DNA of 41,790 nucleotides from Colwellia sp. BRX10-3 (GTDB taxonomy: Bacteria > Pseudomonadota > Gammaproteobacteria > Enterobacterales > Alteromonadaceae): assembly GCF_014077505.1 (NCBI RefSeq), contig NZ_JACGWA010000016.1, positions 1 to 41,790 of the forward strand. The letters run 5' to 3'. The translations under genes and the position numbers were made by a program. Of this stretch, positions 27,141-39,646 are shown one piece after another. Each line of letters opens with the position of its first letter. Within the stretch, counting starts at the first letter, position 1. The notes below the pieces were generated by a model. The model had not been told where the DNA came from. It did not search any database and saw only the letters and a list, made by a program, of their open reading frames with translations.

Positions 27141-28358
27141 TTAGGTCACTTGTTCTATTTTTGTAAAGTCGATTTTATTTTCTTTTGGTGAGCTTTCTAT
27201 TGCTGCTACTTCTTTAAACTTGCTAAACAAAATATAACCAAAGCAAGTAAAGAATAGTCCAATCACTACTGCGCCAACCCATTGGATTTCTAAAAATTCT
27301 AATTTGAATAATAAGGTGAGTAAACTCAAGGCAATAATATTACCTAAGAAGTATTTCACTCTGCCTATGCGTGCTACGCCTATATTCAAATTGTCGGTGT
27401 ACAAACGAATCAATGAATCGAGCGAGTTAATCACGAAGGTTATACCAACAATCGCCATGGCAATATTATAAAAGCCCGTAGTTTCTATGCCATTCATGCT
27501 GTAGTAATACAAAACGCTAAACCAGATTGCAATCGGGATAGACGGAAATAACAACATCGCCAACAGTACTTGATAAGTGCGTAAACCACTGACAAAACGG
27601 GCGGTAAATTGGCCGATCATAATGCTCCATGCAAACCACCAGTAAAGGTAGAATTCATGATAATCATTCATCGGTAGCACGAATTCGTGAATGTTACCAA
27701 AGTAACCACCAAGCATAGAAAATATATTGGCAAATTGGCCAATACTTGAATTTTCTCCAAATAATGCGCCGCCCCACATGACCGCAATTAACGCGAGAAA
27801 AAGCCAAGTGGTAGCTAGGCTTAAAATGCGTACATAACGTATGTTGGTGCTTGAATAAACCGCAAAGGCAATCACTAATAATACAATTAAGTAGAAACTA
27901 CCAATAACAGACTCACCATCACCCAGTTCTGGCAAATACCAAGGTAAGTTCGACAGCAGTAAATAAGCTGTAAATGCACAAGTACCTATAATAACAATGT
28001 TATTTATGAATTTAACCAGCGGAATCTCAAAAAAACGTACGCGTGGTTCAATAACACAAAAGTAAAAACAGGTTAGGAAGTAAAAACTCCAGATAAGAAA
28101 GGCCCAAAAACCAAACTCAATAGCTAAAGGGTTGGTAAATCCGTATTCAGGACTGGTGGCTAAATCGGCGTACCCCGCAAACTCAGTTAATGGGAACATA
28201 ATAAGGCCCACATCAAGTCCGGAAGTAAATAAAATAGCAATAAATGTGAAGGTTTTAACTGGTGTTACACCCACACAGCGAATATTTCCCCATCGATATA
28301 AAATGAATGCGATAGCGGAAAAAGTAAACAACATTCCTGCTGATAGCCATGCGGTCAT
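27141..28358 (-). CDS. Short BCCT-like (betaine/choline/carnitine) transporter
   Basis: The 405-residue protein has about 10 hydrophobic segments and no signal peptide. The key similarity to BCCT carriers is YLYWWFAWSIMIGQFTARFV followed by SGLRT, which matches their TM8 signature (WxxSW...FxARxSRGRT) where an aromatic box binds the quaternary amine. An early SGLDVGLIMFPLTEF block parallels the GMGIGL glycine motif. It is about 100 residues shorter than ordinary BCCT proteins (500 or more), with fewer residues between the early segments and no long C-terminal osmosensing tail. With betA, betB and betI upstream, choline or a similar amine is the likely substrate. Only the family and the context support this. 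Confidence 0.78.
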   Translation of the reverse strand: MTAWLSAGMLFTFSAIAFILYRWGNIRCVGVTPVKTFTFIAILFTSGLDVGLIMFPLTEFAGYADLATSPEYGFTNPLAIEFGFWAFLIWSFYFLTCFYFCVIEPRVRFFEIPLVKFINNIVIIGTCAFTAYLLLSNLPWYLPELGDGESVIGSFYLIVLLVIAFAVYSSTNIRYVRILSLATTWLFLALIAVMWGGALFGENSSIGQFANIFSMLGGYFGNIHEFVLPMNDYHEFYLYWWFAWSIMIGQFTARFVSGLRTYQVLLAMLLFPSIPIAIWFSVLYYYSMNGIETTGFYNIAMAIVGITFVINSLDSLIRLYTDNLNIGVARIGRVKYFLGNIIALSLLTLLFKLEFLEIQWVGAVVIGLFFTCFGYILFSKFKEVAAIESSPKENKIDFTKIEQVT

Positions 28359-28420
28359 GATAATTCCTCTGTAAAGTTTTTAATCAATTTAAAGATAATT
28401 TACTCCTCTTTTTTCTTATA

Positions 28421-28508
28421 ATTATAGTGCTCATAACAAGCTTTTTCGGCTTGAAACATTAATTGTCGTCATGGTTTATGCCAAGGAAAATACCGAGATA
28501 TAAACCAT
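28421..28508 (-). promoter_or_regulatory. Possible internal promoter and inverted repeat upstream of the BCCT-like gene
   Basis: The 193-base gap between betA and the transporter gene has a TATAAT on the minus strand (28421-28426) without a good -35. It also has a perfect 9-bp inverted repeat ATGGTTTAT (28471-28479) and ATAAACCAT (28500-28508) with a 20-base spacer. The AGAGGAG before the ATG is a good ribosome site. The transporter and porin may therefore also be transcribed separately from bet. Confidence 0.4.
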
Positions 28509-28551
28509 TATGATGATAATTACTGTTTGCAAGAACACTGACGATTTAACA

Positions 28552-30237
28552 TTAGTTTGTTGTACGTTTTGGTAAATTTGAACGTTGTTGCTCTCGCCAG
28601 TTAGTCGCTAGCGTTACATCAGCGTTAGCTGGCGCTAATAGCGTTCGCCCACGAATAATATCGGCGGCACGTTCAGCAACCATAATGGTTGGTGAATTAA
28701 GGTTACCATTGGGAATTGTTGGGAATATTGACGAATCAACAACTCTTAGTCCTTCTATGCCATGTACTCGCGTTTGTGGATCAACCACTGCCATTGCATC
28801 TGTACCCATTTTACATGAGCAAGAAGGGTGGTAGGCACTTTCAACTGATTGGCGGACAAAGCTGTCAATTTCTTCATCTGTTTGCACCTTGATGCCGGGC
28901 TGAATTTCTTCGCCACGATATGCATCAAGCGCTTGCTGGTTAATAATTTCACGAGTTAGTCGCACGCAGGCACGAAACCCTTCACGGTCTGCTTCGTGTT
29001 CAAGGTAATTGAAACGAATTTCTGGATGCGCTTTTGGATCGTTTGATACAGCTTTAATTTGCCCACGACTTTTAGGTTTGTTATGGCCTACATGTACTTG
29101 AAATCCGTGGCCTGCAAATGCTTCTTTACCGTCGTAACGCATTGCTGCCGGTAAAAAGTGATATTGCAGGTCTGGCCATTCAACACTGGCTTTAGAGCGA
29201 ATAAAACCACAAGACTCAAAATGGTTGGTTGAACCTAAGCCTTTTTTACTTAATATCCAGCGTGTACCTATCAGCAGTTTACTCCACCAATCTAACTTGC
29301 CATTAAGGGTAATGGGCTGCTTGCACTTAAATTGAAAGTAAAATTCAAGATGATCTTGCAAATTTTCGCCAACACCGGGTAAATCATGTTTTACTTCGAT
29401 ATTTGCGGCTTCAAGTACGGCTTTAGGGCCGATACCTGACAATTGTAAAATGTGTGGCGAGCCAATAGAGCCTGCCGATAAAATGACTTCTTTATTTGCT
29501 GCAACATCAATTAGTTTGCCTTTACGTTCGTACCTAACACCAACGGCTTTTTTACCATCAAGTAGCACTTTATGTACCAACGCATGGGTAATAACCGTTA
29601 AGTTATTACGCGACATTGCTGGGCGTAAATAAGCATTTGCTGTTGAAGCGCGCACACCGTTTTTAACGGTCATGTGCATTGGGCCAAACCCCTCTTGTTG
29701 AGCTGCATTATAATCTTGAGTTTCAAAGTAACCGGCTTCAACTCCCGCATTGATAAATGCCTTGTAAAGCGGGTTTTTCATTTCATTGCCGTTGTTTACG
29801 CCAAGAGGGCCATCTTTTGCACGATATTCATTGGCACTAAATGCCCAGTCTTCTGACTTTTTGAAGTAAGGTAAACAATGGTCGTAATCCCATTCTTGGG
29901 CGCCATGTTCCTGCCACTCATCAAAATCTTTTGCATGTCCACGTACGTAAACCATACCGTTAATTGAAGACGAACCCCCTAAAACTTTACCCCGAGGGCA
30001 ATGCATACGGCGATTATCAAGAAACGGCTCTGGTTGGCTTTCAAATTGCCAAGCATATTTTTTTGAGTTCATCGGAATAGACAATGCCGTTGGCATTTGG
30101 ATAAAAATACTTTTATCGCTACCACCCGTTTCAATCAGTAATACATTGTTATTACTGTCTTCACTAAGACGATTGGCTAAGACACAGCCCGCAGAACCAG
30201 CACCGACAATAATGTAATCAAATTTTTCGCTTTTCAT
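28552..30237 (-). CDS. betA: Choline dehydrogenase (FAD-dependent GMC oxidoreductase)
   Basis: The 561-residue protein follows BetA. The FAD-binding [19 protein letters not shown] is at the N-terminus, [19 protein letters not shown] is GMC signature 1, and [16 protein letters not shown] is signature 2. The C-terminal active-site region has [20 protein letters not shown] (catalytic His) and [20 protein letters not shown] (with Asn). It oxidises choline to betaine aldehyde and probably further to glycine betaine, passing electrons to the membrane chain. AAAGG precedes the ATG. It lies 81 bases downstream of betB in the same direction. Confidence 0.95.
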
Positions 30238-30318
30238 TTAAAACCTTTTAAATAATTTTGTGCATTAAGACCTTTCTTACGGTCTAACTATAGAACAGTA
30301 TTCGAGTAGCTCTGTTAG

Positions 30319-31782
30319 TTAAAAAGGACTGTCGAGTGGCTGTAATCCCACATACACGGCTTTAATTTGGGTAAAATAATTAAGGGTAGCAAGACCGTTT
30401 TCTCTACCAACACCCGACTGTTTGTAACCACCAACCGGCATATGGGCTGGCGATGCACCATAACTATTGATCCAACAAATACCGGCTTGTATTTGATGAA
30501 CTACACGGTGTGCACGGGTAATATCTTGGGTAAATACACCGGCGGCTAGACCAAACTCTGTAGCATTAGCTCGGCTGATCACTTCGTCTTCATCCGTAAA
30601 TGTTAATACGCTCATTACTGGGCCGAAAATTTCTTCACGGCAAATGGTCATTTGGTCAGTACAGTCACCAAAAATAGTAGGCGCAACAAAATAACCGTTT
30701 GGTGCACTGTCTGGTTGTAACGCTTTGCCGCCATAAAGAAGCGTTGCTCCTTCTTTAACGCCAATATCGATGTAACTTTGTACTAAATCCATATGTTTAG
30801 CAGAAATTAGTGCACCAAAGTTAGTGTTAGGGTCCATAGGGTCGCCCACGACAATATTGTTTTTAGTGCGCTCGAGTAGTTTCTCGATAAAGGCTGGGTA
30901 AATTGCTTGATGAACGAATACGCGAGTACCGTTTGTACAAACTTCACCTTGGGTATAAAAATTACCTAACATAGCGGCAGAAACGGCGTTGTCGATATCA
31001 GCATCATCAAAAATAATCAGTGGTGATTTACCGCCGAGTTCCATGGTGACATCTTTAAGTGAACTTGCAGCAGCGGCCATGACTTTTTTACCTGTACCCA
31101 CTTCACCAGTAAAAGAAACTTTAGCAATGTCTGGATGATGCGTTAACCAAGCACCAACTTCACCCGCACCTTGAACAACGTTAAATACGCCGTTAGGTAT
31201 TCCTGCTTCGGTAAAAATTTCTGCTAATTTTAATGCGCCAAGTGGCGTTTCTTCAGAAGGTTTGAAAATCATCACATTACCGCAAGCTAATGCAGGCGCT
31301 GCTTTCCAACAAGCAATTTGTAATGGGTAGTTCCAAGCACCTATACCTGCACAAATCCCCAAGGGCTCGCGGCGCGTATAGTAAAAGTCGCCATTGACGG
31401 CTTGTTGATTGCCTTCAACGCCAGGAGCTAGTCCGGCAAAAAATTCGATTGAATCAGCGCCTGACAATACATCAACGACTGATGCTTCTTGCCATGGCTT
31501 TCCGGTATCAAGCACTTCAATTTTGGCTAATTCGTCATTACGTTCATGCAATAACGCAACAGCCTTAAGTAAAATTCGGCTACGTTCCATAGCGCTCATT
31601 GCTGACCAAGTAGCAAAACCAAGCTTTGCGCTAGCTATAGCTTTTTCTTGGACTTGTTCATCGGCAACTTCAACTTGATAGATAACTTTTCCCGTAGCGG
31701 GGTTAATTACATCAAATGTTTCACCACTGGCATTATCTATATAAGTACCATCGACATAATTTTTATAACGTATTAATGACAA
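30319..31782 (-). CDS. betB: Betaine aldehyde dehydrogenase
   Basis: The 487-residue NAD(P)-dependent aldehyde dehydrogenase has [18 protein letters not shown], the nucleotide loop [28 protein letters not shown] with the catalytic Glu, and [12 protein letters not shown] with the nucleophilic Cys. The ending GVGRENG and [10 protein letters not shown] is typical of BetB. It converts betaine aldehyde to glycine betaine. The start is TTG at 31782, inside the last codons of betI with GGAG eight bases before it, so translation is coupled to betI. Confidence 0.94.
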
Positions 31783-32378
31783 GTAACATCTCCATATTGG
31801 TTAATCTGTTCGTCTATAAAACTTTTACATAATTGCTCAGCTTGTATGAACTCTTCTGCTGGCGATGAACTTAAGGCACAGCGTAGCCATAAACCATCAA
31901 TCATCGCCGCGGTTTTTTTAGCCGCTACTATTGCGACATCTTCTGCTAGTAATTGACGATATGAAAAAAGCAGGTTGCTATACAAACGCTTGCTATTGAT
32001 ATTTTGTAATCTTTTCAGTTTTGGATCATGCATTGATTCTGCCCAAAAACTAAGCCATGTTTTAATGGTGGGGGTAGAGCGCTGAAATGAAGTGAAATTA
32101 GCCTCTATAATCATATTAAGTCGTTCGGTTGCATTAAGTTTTTGCGGCGAAATACGTTCAAGTAATGCTAACTTTAATTGTTCTAAAAGATGCCTAATGG
32201 TTGCTTCTATTAGGCCTTGTTTCCCACCAAAGTAATGACTAATAATTCCAGAAGATAAGCCCGCAATTTTACTGATAGTTATTATGGTTGTATTTTGTAA
32301 GCCATGTTTGCCAATCGATTCTAATGTGGCATCAATTAGCTGTTGTTTACGCAGAGGTTTCATTCCAACTTTAGGCAT
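31773..32378 (-). CDS. betI: BetI-type TetR-family repressor
   Basis: The 201-residue protein opens [19 protein letters not shown] and has the TetR helix-turn-helix [29 protein letters not shown], matching BetI, whose start and HTH are nearly the same as I recall them. The C-terminal ligand half includes [20 protein letters not shown] and DGLWLRCAL, also BetI hallmarks. It should repress the bet genes and release on choline. It is the first gene in the run, 20 bases downstream of an 18-bp perfect palindrome, and overlaps betB by 10 bases. Confidence 0.93.
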
Positions 32379-34745: not shown

Positions 34746-36647
34746 TTAACCATTACTAACATCTTCAAACTCAGCATCGATAACATCTTCGGTACTAGCT
34801 TCATCATTAGCAGCATTTCCTTGAGGTTGCTCTGCTTGCTGAGACTGCGCTTGTTGGGCTTGCATCATGTTAGTGTAAGCTTCTTGTAATGCTTTTTGTC
34901 GCATTTCAATTGCGCCTTTGTCATCACCATTAACCGCCATTTTAAGTTGCTCAATTAAGGTTTTAAGCTCGCCTTGTTGATCATCGCTTAAGGTGTTCAT
35001 CGAGCTTTGTACTGTATGAATTAATTGATCAGCTTGGTTACGTTGCTCAACTAACTCACGCTTTTGTTTATCTTCAGTAGCGTGCATTTGTGCATCGTTC
35101 ACCATGCGATTAACTTCATCTTCCGTTAAACCACTTGATGCGGTAATTTTAATGCTTTGCTCCTTACCGGTGGCTTTGTCTTTCGCGGTAACATTTAAAA
35201 TGCCATCAGCGTCAATATCAAAGGTAACTTCCACTTGTACCGAACCACGTGGGCCAGGGTTAATATCCGTTAAGCTAAATTGACCTAACGATTTATTATC
35301 TGTTGCCATTTCACGCTGACCTTGCAGTACATGCACATTAACCGCAGCTTGATTATCTTCAGCCGTAGAGAAGGTTTCAGAAGCACGTGTTGGTATAGTG
35401 GTATTTTTGTCAATAAGCTTAGTCATTACACCGCCTAAGGTTTCAATACCTAAGGATAATGGCGTTACATCAAGTAATAGCACATCACCGACTGTTCCTG
35501 ACAGTACACCCGCTTGAATCGCTGCGCCCATGGCAACTGCTTCATCTGGGTTTACATCTTTACGTGGCTCTTTGCCAAAAAAGGCTTTAACCGCTGCTTG
35601 TACTTTTGGCATACGTGATTGACCACCTACCAAAATAACTTCACTTATATCACCTTTGCTTAAACCAGCATCTTTTAATGCTTGTTCACATGGTGCTATG
35701 GTGCTTTTTACCAAGTCATCCACTAATGACTCTAATTTAGCGCGAGTAACTTGTACCTTTAAATGTTTAGGGCCACTAGCGTCGGCGGTAACGTAAGGTA
35801 AATTCACGTCAGTTTGTAGTGCTGATGACAACTCGATTTTCGCTTTTTCAGCCGCTTCTTTAATGCGCTGTAGGGCTAAAGGGTCTTGTTTGATATCAAT
35901 ACCACTTTCTTTTTTGAATTCATCAGCTAGGTAATTTATTAAGCGTAAATCAAAATCTTCACCACCTAAAAAGGTATCACCATTGGTTGCTAACACTTCA
36001 AATTGTTTTTCACCGTCCACATTTGCTATTTCGATTATAGAGACATCGAAAGTACCGCCACCTAAATCATAGACGGCCACTTTTTGATCAGCTTTACTGT
36101 TTTTGTCAACACCATAGGCTAATGCTGCTGCTGTAGGTTCGTTAATTATGCGCTTCACATTAAGCCCTGCAATTTTACCTGCGTCTTTCGTTGCTTGGCG
36201 CTGTGAATCGTTAAAGTAAGCCGGTACGGTAATAACCGCGTCTGTTACTGTTTCACCTAAATAAGCTTCAGCATCTTTTTTTAATTTACGTAAAATTTGT
36301 GCTGACACTTCTTGCGGCGATAAAGCTTTACCGTTCACTTCAACCCAAGCATCACCGTTACTTGCTTTAACTATTTTATAAGGCGCGAGCTTAATATCTT
36401 TTTGCACTTCTTTATCATCAAATTTACGACCAATTAAACGTTTAATTGCAAACAAGGTGTTTTTCGAGTTTGTCACCGCTTGTCTTTTAGCCGGTTGACC
36501 CGCTAAAGTTTCATTGTTGGCATAAGCAACAATTGATGGTGTAGTGCGGCTACCTTCTGCATTTTCAATGATTTTTGCAACACCGCCTTCCATCACTGCG
36601 ACACATGAGTTTGTTGTACCTAAATCAATACCAATAGTCTTAGACAT
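34746..36647 (-). CDS. dnaK: DnaK (Hsp70) chaperone
   Basis: This is a complete Hsp70 of 633 residues from the ATG at 36647 (the upstream GTG overlaps the AGGTGA ribosome site). The ATPase domain has [38 protein letters not shown], the linker-proximal [13 protein letters not shown] and [19 protein letters not shown]. The substrate domain follows, then a Gln-rich lid tail ending [14 protein letters not shown], the typical DnaK C-terminal motif for co-chaperone and client contact. Neither dnaJ nor grpE is adjacent; the nearest J-protein gene is cbpA, about 2 kb away. I saw no sigma-32 type promoter. A Crp/Fnr-type site sits at -41.5 of its likely start. It could be the only DnaK or a second copy. 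Confidence 0.95.
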
Positions 36648-36777
36648 AATAATCACCTATTCTTTTAGAACTTCATAAAAAGGTCTGATGCTTTATGGCT
36701 ATTTCCCAGTAAGCAATTTGACCGTATAAACAAACTTGTATAAATGGTTTAACACAAGCTGTTTGGTTAGTGGAGCT

Positions 36778-36821
36778 ATAATACGGAAGGTAAGAGAATG
36801 CTTCTGTCACAAATATGACAG
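36778..36821 (-). promoter_or_regulatory. dnaK promoter with a Crp/Fnr-type class II site
   Basis: CTGTCACAAATATGACAG (36804-36821) is a palindrome with 6-base arms and a 6-base spacer, in form TGTCA-N6-TGACA. On the minus strand a -10 box TATTAT occupies 36778-36783. The -35 place is poor (CAGAAG), as expected when an activator is needed. If transcription starts 7 bases after the -10 box, the palindrome is centred at about -41.5, the class II position of CRP/FNR activators. The regulator gene next door starts at 36990 on the other strand. Confidence 0.7.
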
Positions 36822-36921
36822 TTATGATGATTTTCTGTTTTTATATTTTTTAAATATAAAAATCAATAGATTAATCGGGGTTTTCGGCTAAAGCTAAGTA
36901 AATAAAAGTCATGATTATCTT

Positions 36922-36977
36922 TTGCTATATCACTACAAGAGGTTAGAATAAAATCACACACTTAAACCACGGTTTAA
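36922..36977 (+). promoter_or_regulatory. Probable promoter and leader palindrome of the Crp/Fnr-family gene
   Basis: TTGCTA (36922-36927) and TAGAAT (36944-36949) are 16 bases apart and could form a sigma-70 promoter. TTAAACC (36962-36968) and GGTTTAA (36971-36977) form a palindrome with a 2-base centre, 12 bases before the ATG. No clear ribosome site is seen, so the palindrome may influence translation or be an operator. Confidence 0.45.
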
Positions 36978-36989
36978 ATCATTGTACCT

Positions 36990-37754
36990 ATGAATAACGA
37001 TGTTACGCATTTACCACAAAAAGCCAGCCCAGTATTAGTTAAACAAGCTAATATTTTTGCAGATTTACCTGCAAAATTAATTGAAGACTTTCAACAAGAA
37101 TTCCAGCTTGATGAATGGCGCAAAGGTGACTACTTTAATTCGAACTTATTAACCCAGCGTTTTTTTGTTGTGATAGATGGCAGTTTGGAAATTAAACAAA
37201 GTAACCCTGAAACGGGCAGAGAAGCGACGTTAGATATGCTTTATGCCGGTGATTGTTTTGATTTAATGGTGTTATTAGATGATCAACCCCATGACGTGAT
37301 AGTTTCACCATTAACCACGGTAAAACTACTATCAGTAAAATTAACAACGATGCGAAATTGGTTGTGGACCTATCCAGAATTTAACCAACAATTTATGCCT
37401 TATTTAGCAAAAAAAATGCGTGAAAAAGAGCAACAGGCAAGTAGCCTAGTTTTGCATGATGTAACCACACGTTTAAGCCGTATTATTTTAGAACATATAA
37501 ATAAAATTAAGTTTTATACCGGTACCAAAGCAGAAGAACATCAGCATCATTTGGTAAATGGTTTAAACGATGAAACGTTAGCACGGATGACCGGCTCAGT
37601 CAGACAAGTTATTAATAAACAATTACAGCACTGGAAGAAAGAAGGCACCATAGATAAAACACGTAATCAACTTATTGTAAAAGACCTAGAAGCATTAGAA
37701 AAAGCAGCGAAATACACCCAAACGTTAGCGAACGCGCCTTTAGTTAAGAACTAG
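36990..37754 (+). CDS. Crp/Fnr-family transcriptional regulator
   Basis: The 254-residue protein has a cyclic-nucleotide-binding-type beta barrel over about 20-130 (GDYFNSNLLTQRFFVVIDGS and LYAGDCFDLMVLLDD), a dimer helix, and a C-terminal winged helix about 165-235. The recognition helix is in MTGSVRQVINKQLQHWKKEG. Aligned to E. coli CRP, Arg205, Gln206 and Lys210 fall at Arg180, Glu181 and Arg185. The effector pocket lacks the clear cAMP pattern (RxS) and there is no N-terminal cysteine set for an iron-sulfur cluster, so the signal is unknown. It is divergent from dnaK, with a TGTCA-N6-TGACA site between them. It is 254 residues, longer than CRP (210) at both ends. Confidence 0.86.
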   Translation: MNNDVTHLPQKASPVLVKQANIFADLPAKLIEDFQQEFQLDEWRKGDYFNSNLLTQRFFVVIDGSLEIKQSNPETGREATLDMLYAGDCFDLMVLLDDQPHDVIVSPLTTVKLLSVKLTTMRNWLWTYPEFNQQFMPYLAKKMREKEQQASSLVLHDVTTRLSRIILEHINKIKFYTGTKAEEHQHHLVNGLNDETLARMTGSVRQVINKQLQHWKKEGTIDKTRNQLIVKDLEALEKAAKYTQTLANAPLVKN

Positions 37755-37902
37755 TCAAATACGCATTCTCAAAGTGTTGTGTCTGTAACAGTTTTTATAC
37801 AGGCTCAACATAGTCGTTGATCACTTAAACATACGTCTCACTTTTATGGAAAATATAAGAATGGTAAATTAGGCAAAATAATTTTTGGAGACAATTTTCA
37901 AA

Positions 37903-38370
37903 ATGAAGAAGCAGTCAGGTTTTACATTAATAGAATTAGTTATTGTTATTATTATCTTAGGAATTCTATCAGCAACCGCATTACCAAAATTTATAAATTT
38001 ACAAGGTGATGCGCGACAGGCCGTAATGAATGGCCTTAAGGCATCTTTAGAAACAGCGTCGACATTTACATACACTAAAGCCATTATTGAAGGGGTGGGA
38101 GATTCTTTCGATGAAACACTATCATCGGGTATCAGAATTAGATACGGCTATCCTTTTGCAACGCAAGAAAATTTAAAGGCGGTACTTAATTTTACCGAAG
38201 ACGACTTTAAACTTACGGGATCAAATCCCGCAATCACTTTTACATTTACCAAAGATACCCAGGATTTGACAACAAGTGAAATCGACAGTGCTGGCGTTTG
38301 CAAGCTTGTATATACCCGAGCTAACAAGGGCGAACGACCAAACCTGACTATTTCTGGCTGCATAGATTAA
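37903..38370 (+). CDS. Type IV pilin-like protein, MshA-like
   Basis: The 155-residue prepilin starts MKKQSG then FTLIELVIVIIILGILSATA. It is cut after Gly6 by prepilin peptidase, with Phe+1 N-methylated and Glu+5 present. The mature helix passes the inner membrane and then forms the core of a pilus or pseudopilus. The C-terminal globular part has a pair of cysteines near the end (VCKLVYTR and SGCID) that would form the disulfide-bound loop, as in MSHA-type pilins. GGAG is 13 bases before the ATG; a TTG at 37885 overlaps it and is unlikely. It stands alone, far from any pilus machinery, so it may be a minor pilin or an orphan paralogue. Confidence 0.87.
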   Translation: MKKQSGFTLIELVIVIIILGILSATALPKFINLQGDARQAVMNGLKASLETASTFTYTKAIIEGVGDSFDETLSSGIRIRYGYPFATQENLKAVLNFTEDDFKLTGSNPAITFTFTKDTQDLTTSEIDSAGVCKLVYTRANKGERPNLTISGCID

Positions 38371-38413
38371 CTATTATTAAAGCCTTAGGTGTTATGACGT
38401 GCTAGGTAGAATA

Positions 38414-38450
38414 GCGCCATACTGATATCTCAGTATGGCGCACTTGTTTT
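38414..38450 (+). terminator. Terminator between the pilin gene and cbpA
   Basis: GCGCCATACTGA (38414-38425) pairs perfectly with TCAGTATGGCGC (38430-38441) around a 4-base loop, followed by ACTTGTTTTT. It probably ends the pilin transcript and may also stop cbpA transcription from the other strand. Confidence 0.8.
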
Positions 38451-38478
38451 TAGGTAAGTCAATACTAGTTAAGCTAAG

Positions 38479-39450
38479 TTAAGCATCAACTTTTTGCTTT
38501 ACACTTTCATTGCCGTTTTCATTATCATTAGTCGCTAGCTTTTTTAACGATTGATACAGTGCTTCTTCTTCTGCAGACAAACTTTTTGGGAAAACAATTT
38601 TTAGCTTAACAAAAAAGTCTCCAGCAACCTTGCTTGGAAGTCCGCGACCTTTTAAGCGCATTTTACTGCCACTACTGATCAGTTTAGGTAAACTTAAATC
38701 AATATAGCCTTTAGGTGTGGGTACTTTTACTTTTTCACCTAAAGCGGCTTGCCATGGGCTAATGGTAAGCTCAGTGGTAATATCAGCACCTTCTATAACG
38801 TATAAAGGATCAGGATTAAATCCCACTTCAAGATACAAATCGCCATTGTTTGCACCACCAACACCAGGTTGACCTTGCTTTTGCAAACGAATTTTTTGAC
38901 CCGGTTTAATGCCTTTTGGAATACTAACTTTTAAAGTGCGTTCTTTGTTTTGCATTCTGCCTTGTTGATCAACCACTTGGTCTTGTAGCGTAAAATTGCG
39001 GCTTGCACCTGTGTAAGCATCTTGTAAATCAATCAATATTTTTGCGTTGCTATCTTGCCCTTGCATAGACCGACGACCACGTGATGCGTGTTGCCCCCCG
39101 CCAAAACCGCCACCAAATAATGATTCAAAAAAGTCGCTATAATCACCTTGACCACCCGCATTGAAATTACCATTGCCTTGCTGATATTGATCTTGCCAAC
39201 TGGGGGGAGGTGTAAAACCAGATTGGCCTGCTTTCCAATTACTGCCTAATTGGTCATACGCTGCGCGTTTATCTTTATCGCGCAACACTTCATAAGCTTC
39301 GTTAATATCTTTAAAGCGAGTTTCAGCATTTTTTTCTTTACTTACATCGGGATGAAATTTTCGCGCTAATTTACGATATGACGTTTTAATTTCATCTTGG
39401 GATGCGCTTTTATCAACATCCATAATTTTATAATAATCTTTATAATTCAC
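38479..39450 (-). CDS. cbpA: CbpA-type DnaJ co-chaperone
   Basis: The GTG at 39450 is the best start: AGGAGG sits five bases before it and the product begins MNYKDYYKIMDVDKSASQ like CbpA. It has about 323 residues. The J domain (1-70) includes YRKLARKFHPDVS with the HPD motif essential for stimulating DnaK. A G/F-rich linker (FFESLFGGGFGGGQ) and two beta-barrel client-binding domains follow (SIPKGIKPGQKIRL and GDLYLEVGF). The zinc-finger domain of DnaJ itself is absent, which distinguishes CbpA. It acts with DnaK, encoded about 2 kb away in the same direction, and shares a candidate control site with it. Confidence 0.92.
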   Translation of the reverse strand: MNYKDYYKIMDVDKSASQDEIKTSYRKLARKFHPDVSKEKNAETRFKDINEAYEVLRDKDKRAAYDQLGSNWKAGQSGFTPPPSWQDQYQQGNGNFNAGGQGDYSDFFESLFGGGFGGGQHASRGRRSMQGQDSNAKILIDLQDAYTGASRNFTLQDQVVDQQGRMQNKERTLKVSIPKGIKPGQKIRLQKQGQPGVGGANNGDLYLEVGFNPDPLYVIEGADITTELTISPWQAALGEKVKVPTPKGYIDLSLPKLISSGSKMRLKGRGLPSKVAGDFFVKLKIVFPKSLSAEEEALYQSLKKLATNDNENGNESVKQKVDA

Positions 39451-39603
39451 ACTGACCTCCTGCATATATATCTTGCAGATAACTTTTTAACTAGCTTCTG
39501 TAACTAGCTTTTATAAATAATTTTAGAAGATAAAGTGGGTGATTAATAACTCAAGGTTGAAATCACCGACGATTAATTTTAGCTATTCCTATTTGATAGT
39601 ATG

Positions 39604-39646
39604 AGTATAAATGTAAAGGAAAATAACCAATGTCAGTAATGTGACA
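39604..39646 (-). promoter_or_regulatory. cbpA promoter with a Crp/Fnr-type class II site
   Basis: TGTCAGTAATGTGACA (39631-39646) is TGTCA-N6-TGACA, the same form as the site before dnaK. On the minus strand TATACT is at 39604-39609. The distance from the -10 edge to the centre of the palindrome is 29.5 bases, identical to that at dnaK, and the -35 place is again poor (CATTGG). The expected start near 39597 leaves a leader of about 147 bases before the GTG. Confidence 0.7.

Follow-up and report, generated by a model that had tools for sequence, protein, structure and literature searches.

The stretch of DNA analysed here, 41,790 nucleotides from Colwellia sp. BRX10-3 (contig NZ_JACGWA010000016.1; hereafter the window), carries a second dnaK gene (dnaK2), a gene for a Crp/Fnr-family regulator divergent from it, and a gene for a CbpA-type J-protein (cbpA), and the promoters of the two chaperone genes share one palindrome, TGTCA-N6-TGACA. 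Judged from these sequences, they probably form a dedicated two-promoter Crp/Fnr regulon, with the regulator as class II activator of dnaK2 and cbpA. As we propose, the gene at 36990-37754 would encode a dedicated dimer of the Crp/Fnr family; the dimer would bind the palindrome at the two promoters and from -41.5 would recruit the sigma-70 RNA polymerase as a class II activator, replacing the -35 box; and the second Hsp70 with its J-protein partner would be turned on jointly by a signal distinct from heat shock. The parts of this proposal differ in strength: the evidence argues strongly for binding of both palindromes by the regulator and moderately for activation rather than repression, and we infer a partnership between DnaK2 and CbpA from knowledge of their families.

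The palindromes, their promoters and their conservation

The elements in question are listed below, where counts out of 34 refer to distinct genomes, that of the window included and duplicates removed by regulator sequence.

34746-36647, minus strand: dnaK2, second DnaK of 633 amino acids, ATG at 36647; Pfam HSP70 858 bits
36778-36783, minus strand: dnaK2 -10 box TATTAT; by simple best-match scoring, 21 bases from the palindrome in 33 of 34 genomes and 19 in L046
36805-36820, no strand: palindrome TGTCACAAATATGACA, predicted site of the regulator, with its centre near -41.5 of dnaK2; exact in all 34 genomes
36990-37754, plus strand: Crp/Fnr-family regulator of 254 amino acids, divergent from dnaK2; Pfam HTH_Crp_2 and cNMP_binding
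38479-39465, minus strand: cbpA-type J-protein of 328 amino acids; DnaJ and DnaJ_C domains, no zinc-finger match
39604-39609, minus strand: cbpA -10 box TATACT; spacing 21 (n=10) or 20 (n=5) in 15 linked exact-site genomes
39631-39646, no strand: palindrome TGTCAGTAATGTGACA, predicted site of the regulator, with its centre near -41.5 of cbpA

A preliminary description of this DNA had reported the two palindromes, the centre of each standing 29.5 bases off the near edge of a good -10 box, with a poor -35 box at both, and our results bear this out. Both copies are exact and stand at 36805-36820 and 39631-39646, and the combined pattern of palindrome, 21 bases and TANNNT fits with zero mismatches at 36778-36820 and at 39604-39646, on the minus strand in both cases. 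Across relatives, with spacers of 16-18 allowed, the best -35 match reaches 1-3 of 6 and lies on average below shuffles, namely 1.88 of 6 against 2.5 for 34 dnaK2 promoters and 1.53 of 6 against 2.71 for 15 cbpA promoters. The spacer sequences of the two promoters are otherwise unlike while their -10 spacing is alike, and the distance from site to -10 box is 20-21 bases in 48 of the 49 scored site-promoter pairs. With the position of the site counted from assumed start sites, the -41.5 centre, the conserved -10 box, the missing -35 box and the near-fixed distance thus make up the pattern of a class II promoter.

It may also be supposed that the regulator, though it binds both palindromes, is a repressor, covering the -35 region until a signal frees the polymerase. 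At each promoter the site does extend over part of the -35 region, a conserved -10 box is equally compatible with a repressed promoter, and other Crp/Fnr proteins repress, among them RedB of Rhodobacter capsulatus, a CRP/FNR protein reported in passages of PMC9603854 to repress dnaK directly. We regard repression as unlikely nevertheless, since the -35 places fit the consensus less well than shuffled sequence does, and the dnaK2 and cbpA promoters should therefore be weak without help; moreover, a distance of 20-21 bases held by two unlike promoters is what the geometry of activation needs, and not what operator overlap needs.

Within its own genome (3.87 Mb in 55 contigs), a scan for TGTCA-N6-TGACA, of the kind proposed in the preliminary description, finds six exact copies, where a reversed control pattern has three. 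The window's two copies, 2.8 kb apart, are the only ones of the six outside open frames; the other four lie within open frames that are murJ-, metL-, YciO- and DUF1289-like, as judged from their translations, and with four copies elsewhere in the genome about 0.04 would thus be expected per 42-kb window. When the window itself was shuffled with one mismatch allowed, two copies were seen against a mean of 1.11 expected, and at least two occurred in 30 of 100 shuffles, which is unconvincing alone. This test is weak, and it is the comparison with relatives that decides the significance of the palindrome. When the palindrome together with the -10 box was searched in four genomes with one mismatch allowed, no match beyond dnaK2 and cbpA was common to all four. 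Four of the matches (L147-L150) were examined, of which L147 falls within a fabG-like frame and L149 within a long frame.

Among 147 relatives, the own genome included, 59 carry a regulator match at an expectation value (E) of 0.001 or below. Near matches occur in 19 of the 147 (68-100% identical, E <=1.1e-123), and the other 40, at 1.8e-10 or weaker, were counted as other Crp/Fnr proteins. A further scan of named genomes with two peptide patterns, by which distant relatives can be missed, gave 26 regulator loci in Colwellia, Cognaticolwellia, Pseudocolwellia, Paraglaciecola and metagenome-assembled genomes. Conservation in relatives had been put forward as a check on the palindromes, and they pass it well: the site is exact at 34 of 34 dnaK2 and 19 of 21 cbpA promoters examined, the latter comprising 17 linked cbpA genes with their start in the fetched stretch (exact in 15) and four unlinked ones (G007, G011, G012 and G083; exact in all four). 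When 25 intergenic regions were aligned without an anchor, both palindrome arms came out invariant and the flanks poorly conserved; a separate alignment was anchored on the exact site, where 100% conserved arms are true by construction. Rearranged loci are instructive as well. For example in L041, the GNAT gene that is usually divergent from cbpA lies about 1.6 kb off and the site remains with cbpA, and in L052 and L054, where 1-2 kb separate the start of the regulator from the dnaK2 site, this site remains with dnaK2. The sites therefore travel with dnaK2 and cbpA, and not with the GNAT gene or the start of the regulator.

The genes are also shared as a set. The regulator and DnaK2 occur in the identical 19 of the 147 relatives, with no exceptions, and in the identical three of 394 genomes sampled from the order; here DnaK2 was called at E <=1e-290, a limit that the standard DnaK, with about 1e-273 as its best value, does not reach, and the DnaK candidates first scored numbered at most eight per genome for the relatives and at most three per genome for the order. 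In 19 of 19 regulator-free genomes searched, no near relative of the window's cbpA was found, the best near-full-length match being 42% identical and partial ones reaching up to 47%, with none in G035; 18 of these 19 genomes have a single DnaK (66-69% identity), and G035 has none at E <=1e-200. At the genus level the presence is patchy, as G006 (66% complete), G013, G015 and G016 are without both regulator and DnaK2.

The regulator and the sequence it would read

With 30.5 bits for cNMP_binding (cut-off 27.5) and 38.6 bits for HTH_Crp (cut-off 27), the regulator belongs to the Crp/Fnr superfamily, and a dyad of the TGnnn-N6-nnnCA form is conserved at both putative targets. Its recognition helix reads Arg205-Gln206...Lys210, just as the preliminary description had it, these three residues being invariant in all 34 genomes; Gln206 and Lys210 occupy the places of Glu181 and Arg185 of E. 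coli CRP, and the fourth base of the half site is C, not G. The nearest solved relatives, which from their entry codes we take to be Rv3676 and GlxR, keep the Glu and have Lys (R-E-T-V-N-K) at the recognition helix, and these two proteins read TGTGA. Since they have Lys but Glu, Gln206 is the likelier determinant of the TGTCA site. Gln likewise stands at the Glu181 place of CooA. For E. coli CRP, passages of PMC11253593 describe how Glu181 and Arg185 read the fourth base pair of TGTGA.

These observations bear on the supposition that the palindromes belong to another protein, such as the standard CRP or some other dimeric regulator, and that the linked Crp/Fnr gene does something else. In its favour, linkage is not universal, for the regulator lies 1-2 kb off in L052 and L054, and cbpA stands apart from the regulator in G007, G011, G012 and G083. 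Against it stand the strict shared presence of the regulator with DnaK2, the 16-bp dyad geometry, which is that of Crp/Fnr, the correspondence between Gln206 and the C:G pair, and the TGTGA specificity of the standard CRP (passages of PMC11253593). We consider it decidedly improbable in view of these sequences, and binding of both palindromes by the linked regulator is preferred in what follows.

As for the effector, the regulator scores 33.9 bits against the NCBIfam CRP model, below the cut-off of 266, and is thus outside CRP proper. Cyclic AMP (cAMP) is held in CRP by the phosphate-binding residues Glu72, Arg82 and Ser83. In the regulator, by way of the alignment to Rv3676, these places are taken by Leu92, His101 and, at residue 102, mostly Asp, and because these residues are replaced, cAMP looks unlikely as the effector. 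Both Cys89 and His101 are invariant in the 34 genomes. The 4Fe-4S cluster of FNR is held by four cysteines, and here Cys89 is the sole invariant one, 31 of the 34 sequences having no other; thus no FNR-type cluster is expected in the regulator. According to passages of PMC12937710, CooA must lack the stretch corresponding to CRP 72-82 in order to hold haem. This stretch aligns free of gaps between the regulator and Rv3676, which was the protein compared rather than CooA itself, and by this comparison a CooA-type haem may be unlikely too. By analogy with DdrI, the regulator may be active without an effector.

The regulator's own promoter is less distinct:

36922-36949, plus strand: candidate sigma-70-type regulator promoter, TTGCTA, 16 bases, TAGAAT; partly conserved in the 25-sequence alignment

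It was rejected as a good promoter to contrast with the other two, as the best pair averages 9.0 of 12, barely above the 8.68 of shuffles.

dnaK2, the heat-shock promoter and the weighing of the proposal

Hsp70 genes of gamma-proteobacteria are usually regarded as sigma-32 genes. The preliminary description was right that the first palindrome precedes a dnaK, for the product scores 980.3 bits (cut-off 648) and 915.7 bits (cut-off 822.55) against the NCBIfam DnaK equivalogs; but this gene is a second dnaK, and not that of the genome's dnaK-dnaJ locus, where the standard dnaK adjoins a DnaJ match (C50:134663-137093). The two DnaK proteins are 67% identical (tblastn). A third full-length HSP70 match, at C50:191102, is presumably HscA.

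Promoters were scanned with the sigma-32 pattern CTTGAAA-N11-16-CCCCAT, scored out of 13, a consensus that passages of PMC545781 print as well. The standard dnaK has a sigma-32-type promoter, at 11-12 of 13, in all 21 genomes scanned, namely the own genome, G053, G083 and 18 that lack the regulator. At dnaK2, in the window and 24 of the 26 named loci, the scan gives 7-9 of 13 in 24 of 25 stretches and no candidate in one, against a mean of 8.75 in shuffled dnaK2 stretches. With this promoter type found at 21 of 21 standard dnaK genes and 0 of 25 dnaK2 genes, the earlier statement that control is by something other than sigma-32 holds for dnaK2, which is without the sigma-32 promoter that the standard dnaK has.

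The region beyond the -10 box deserves some attention in this connection:

36640-36777, minus strand: dnaK2 leader, starting with a conserved AGCNCCACTAACCAA stretch; alignment of 17 leaders

Directly past the dnaK2 -10 box (36766-36775, minus strand), CCACTAAC is found in 22 of 34 genomes and CCCCACTAAC in nine, the window's own reading being CTCCACTAAC. Moreover, at the standard dnaK, in the own genome (leader L120) and in five of 20 others, the sigma-32 -10 region with the bases that follow it also reads CCCCACTAAC, and we would guess that these stretches are a possible relic of a lost sigma-32 promoter. The same resemblance is what speaks for taking the promoters as ordinary heat-shock promoters, with dnaK2 a sigma-32 gene, or the palindromes as coincidental. 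Such an explanation is scarcely credible: the palindrome is kept in 34 of 34 genomes, no TTGAA-type -35 stands in register, and the scan scores at dnaK2, 7-9 or none, compare with 11-12 at the standard dnaK and 8.75 in shuffles. As a separate observation, the leader contains conserved blocks and a candidate stem GGTC...GACC with a few paired changes, weak by energy. Its fold has z = -1.4, with 20 of 200 shuffles equally good, and the consensus fold has seven pairs, three of them changed on both sides, with a covariation term of about 0. No RNA structure is claimed for the leader.

Several points weigh against the proposed regulon. The shared presence of its genes is partly due to common descent in one clade. 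C. polaris (L045 and L125, one genome) has a linked cbpA without the exact site, a degenerate copy remaining; at the linked cbpA of L139, an uncultured Colwellia, no site was seen; and G053 has regulator and DnaK2, with no such cbpA found in its assembly. The bare palindrome numbers 3-12 per genome (mean 6.1, n=18) where the regulator is present and 0-9 (mean 4.6, n=18) where it is absent, the reversed control numbering 0-5 and 0-10 in the same sets of 18 each, and hence these counts do not clearly split the two sets. Two intergenic one-mismatch sites, each with one arm broken, may be minor targets, namely L148, upstream of a radA-like gene in G005 and G008, and L150, which precedes a purH-like gene and was seen in G000 alone. 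Finally, structure prediction for the regulator from 14 sequences gave a mean predicted local distance difference test score (pLDDT) of 46.8, too poor for use.

Even so, activation of dnaK2 and cbpA by the linked regulator remains the probable explanation, and a wider scenario, tentative and rather doubtful as it is, can be built upon it. A second Hsp70 machine would have a one-component sensor to itself: a regulator whose DNA specificity is altered and whose effector is new would run a chaperone response other than heat shock, marine bacteria would gain and lose the module as one unit, and a dnaK copy would have left sigma-32 control; the effector would possibly be redox, sensed via the invariant Cys89, or feedback by free DnaK2 or CbpA binding to the regulator.

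Some neighbouring features may be recorded. The J-protein scores 261 bits against the NCBIfam CbpA equivalog, under the cut-off of 403; CbpA is the best-scoring model, though below cut-off, and "CbpA-type J-protein" is the safer name. In G009 cbpA lies in two frames (L044:8490-9466), and in G004 in two pieces 1.4 kb apart (L046:8525-10905), the upstream palindrome being kept in both. In G007 a regulator-like remnant (L118:5997-6167; 40-45% identical, with stops) lies about 470 bases away from the unlinked cbpA and hints at a former second regulator copy in that genome. Between regulator and cbpA, at 37906-38370, stands a pilin-like gene whose product has a methylation motif at its N-terminus, found also in three of 18 relatives' stretches, with no match in the other 15. 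Downstream of dnaK2, at 27141-32378, lies a choline-to-betaine cluster of BetI-, BetB- and BetA-like genes and a BCCT-like membrane protein (names from translations); a BetI-like gene is present in eight of 18 relatives' stretches.

Comparison with known systems

The preliminary description had called Crp/Fnr control of dnaK unusual, which is fair, yet the repression of dnaK by RedB, reported as direct in passages of PMC9603854, is a precedent. A literature search covering titles and the starts of abstracts, with few subscription papers, found no description of a Crp/Fnr-dnaK2-cbpA module. Crp/Fnr proteins with small local regulons, such as CooA, are known already, as is direct control of dnaK by RedB; what we rate as new is a dedicated TGTCA-site Crp/Fnr regulator for a co-inherited second DnaK and J-protein. 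In one cell, then, one Hsp70 keeps its sigma-32-type promoter and the other is apparently under a dedicated Crp-type activator, and this raises a testable question, namely what Colwellia and related marine bacteria sense that needs a second Hsp70 but not the heat-shock response.

Like the sigma-32 system of dnaK-dnaJ, whose promoter type stands at the standard dnaK of these genomes, the predicted regulon governs an Hsp70/J-protein pair, and it differs in that the sigma-32 promoter elements are absent at dnaK2. With RedB it shares a CRP/FNR protein acting directly on a dnaK, reported there and predicted here, whereas RedB represses, has 115 called binding peaks and uses a non-palindromic site (passages of PMC9603854). 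DdrI of Deinococcus, as described in parts of PMC11253593, is likewise a CRP-family protein linked to stress, heat shock included, and binds DNA without cAMP, but has hundreds of potential targets and a TGTGA-type site. CooA resembles the regulator as a local regulator with a TGTC-type half site, its consensus being printed as TGTCGGCNNGCCGACA in passages of PMC545781; unlike CooA, the regulator appears to keep the CRP 72-82 stretch (Rv3676 alignment), and its putative targets are chaperones. Rv3676 and GlxR have the same domain order and the Lys at the Arg185 place, and differ by Glu, not Gln, at the Glu181 place and by Arg-Thr-Ser where the regulator's family has His-x-Val. The likeness to class II activation by E. 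coli CRP lies in the Crp/Fnr domains, the 16-bp dyad at about -41.5 and the Arg at the first recognition position. The differences lie in TGTCA half sites instead of TGTGA, in Gln and Lys for Glu181 and Arg185, in the replaced cAMP-holding residues, and in two clear targets against the global regulon of CRP. Altogether, compared with CRP, the two promoters offer a compact natural system in which a Glu-to-Gln change in the recognition helix stands alongside the difference between TGTGA and TGTCA in the site.

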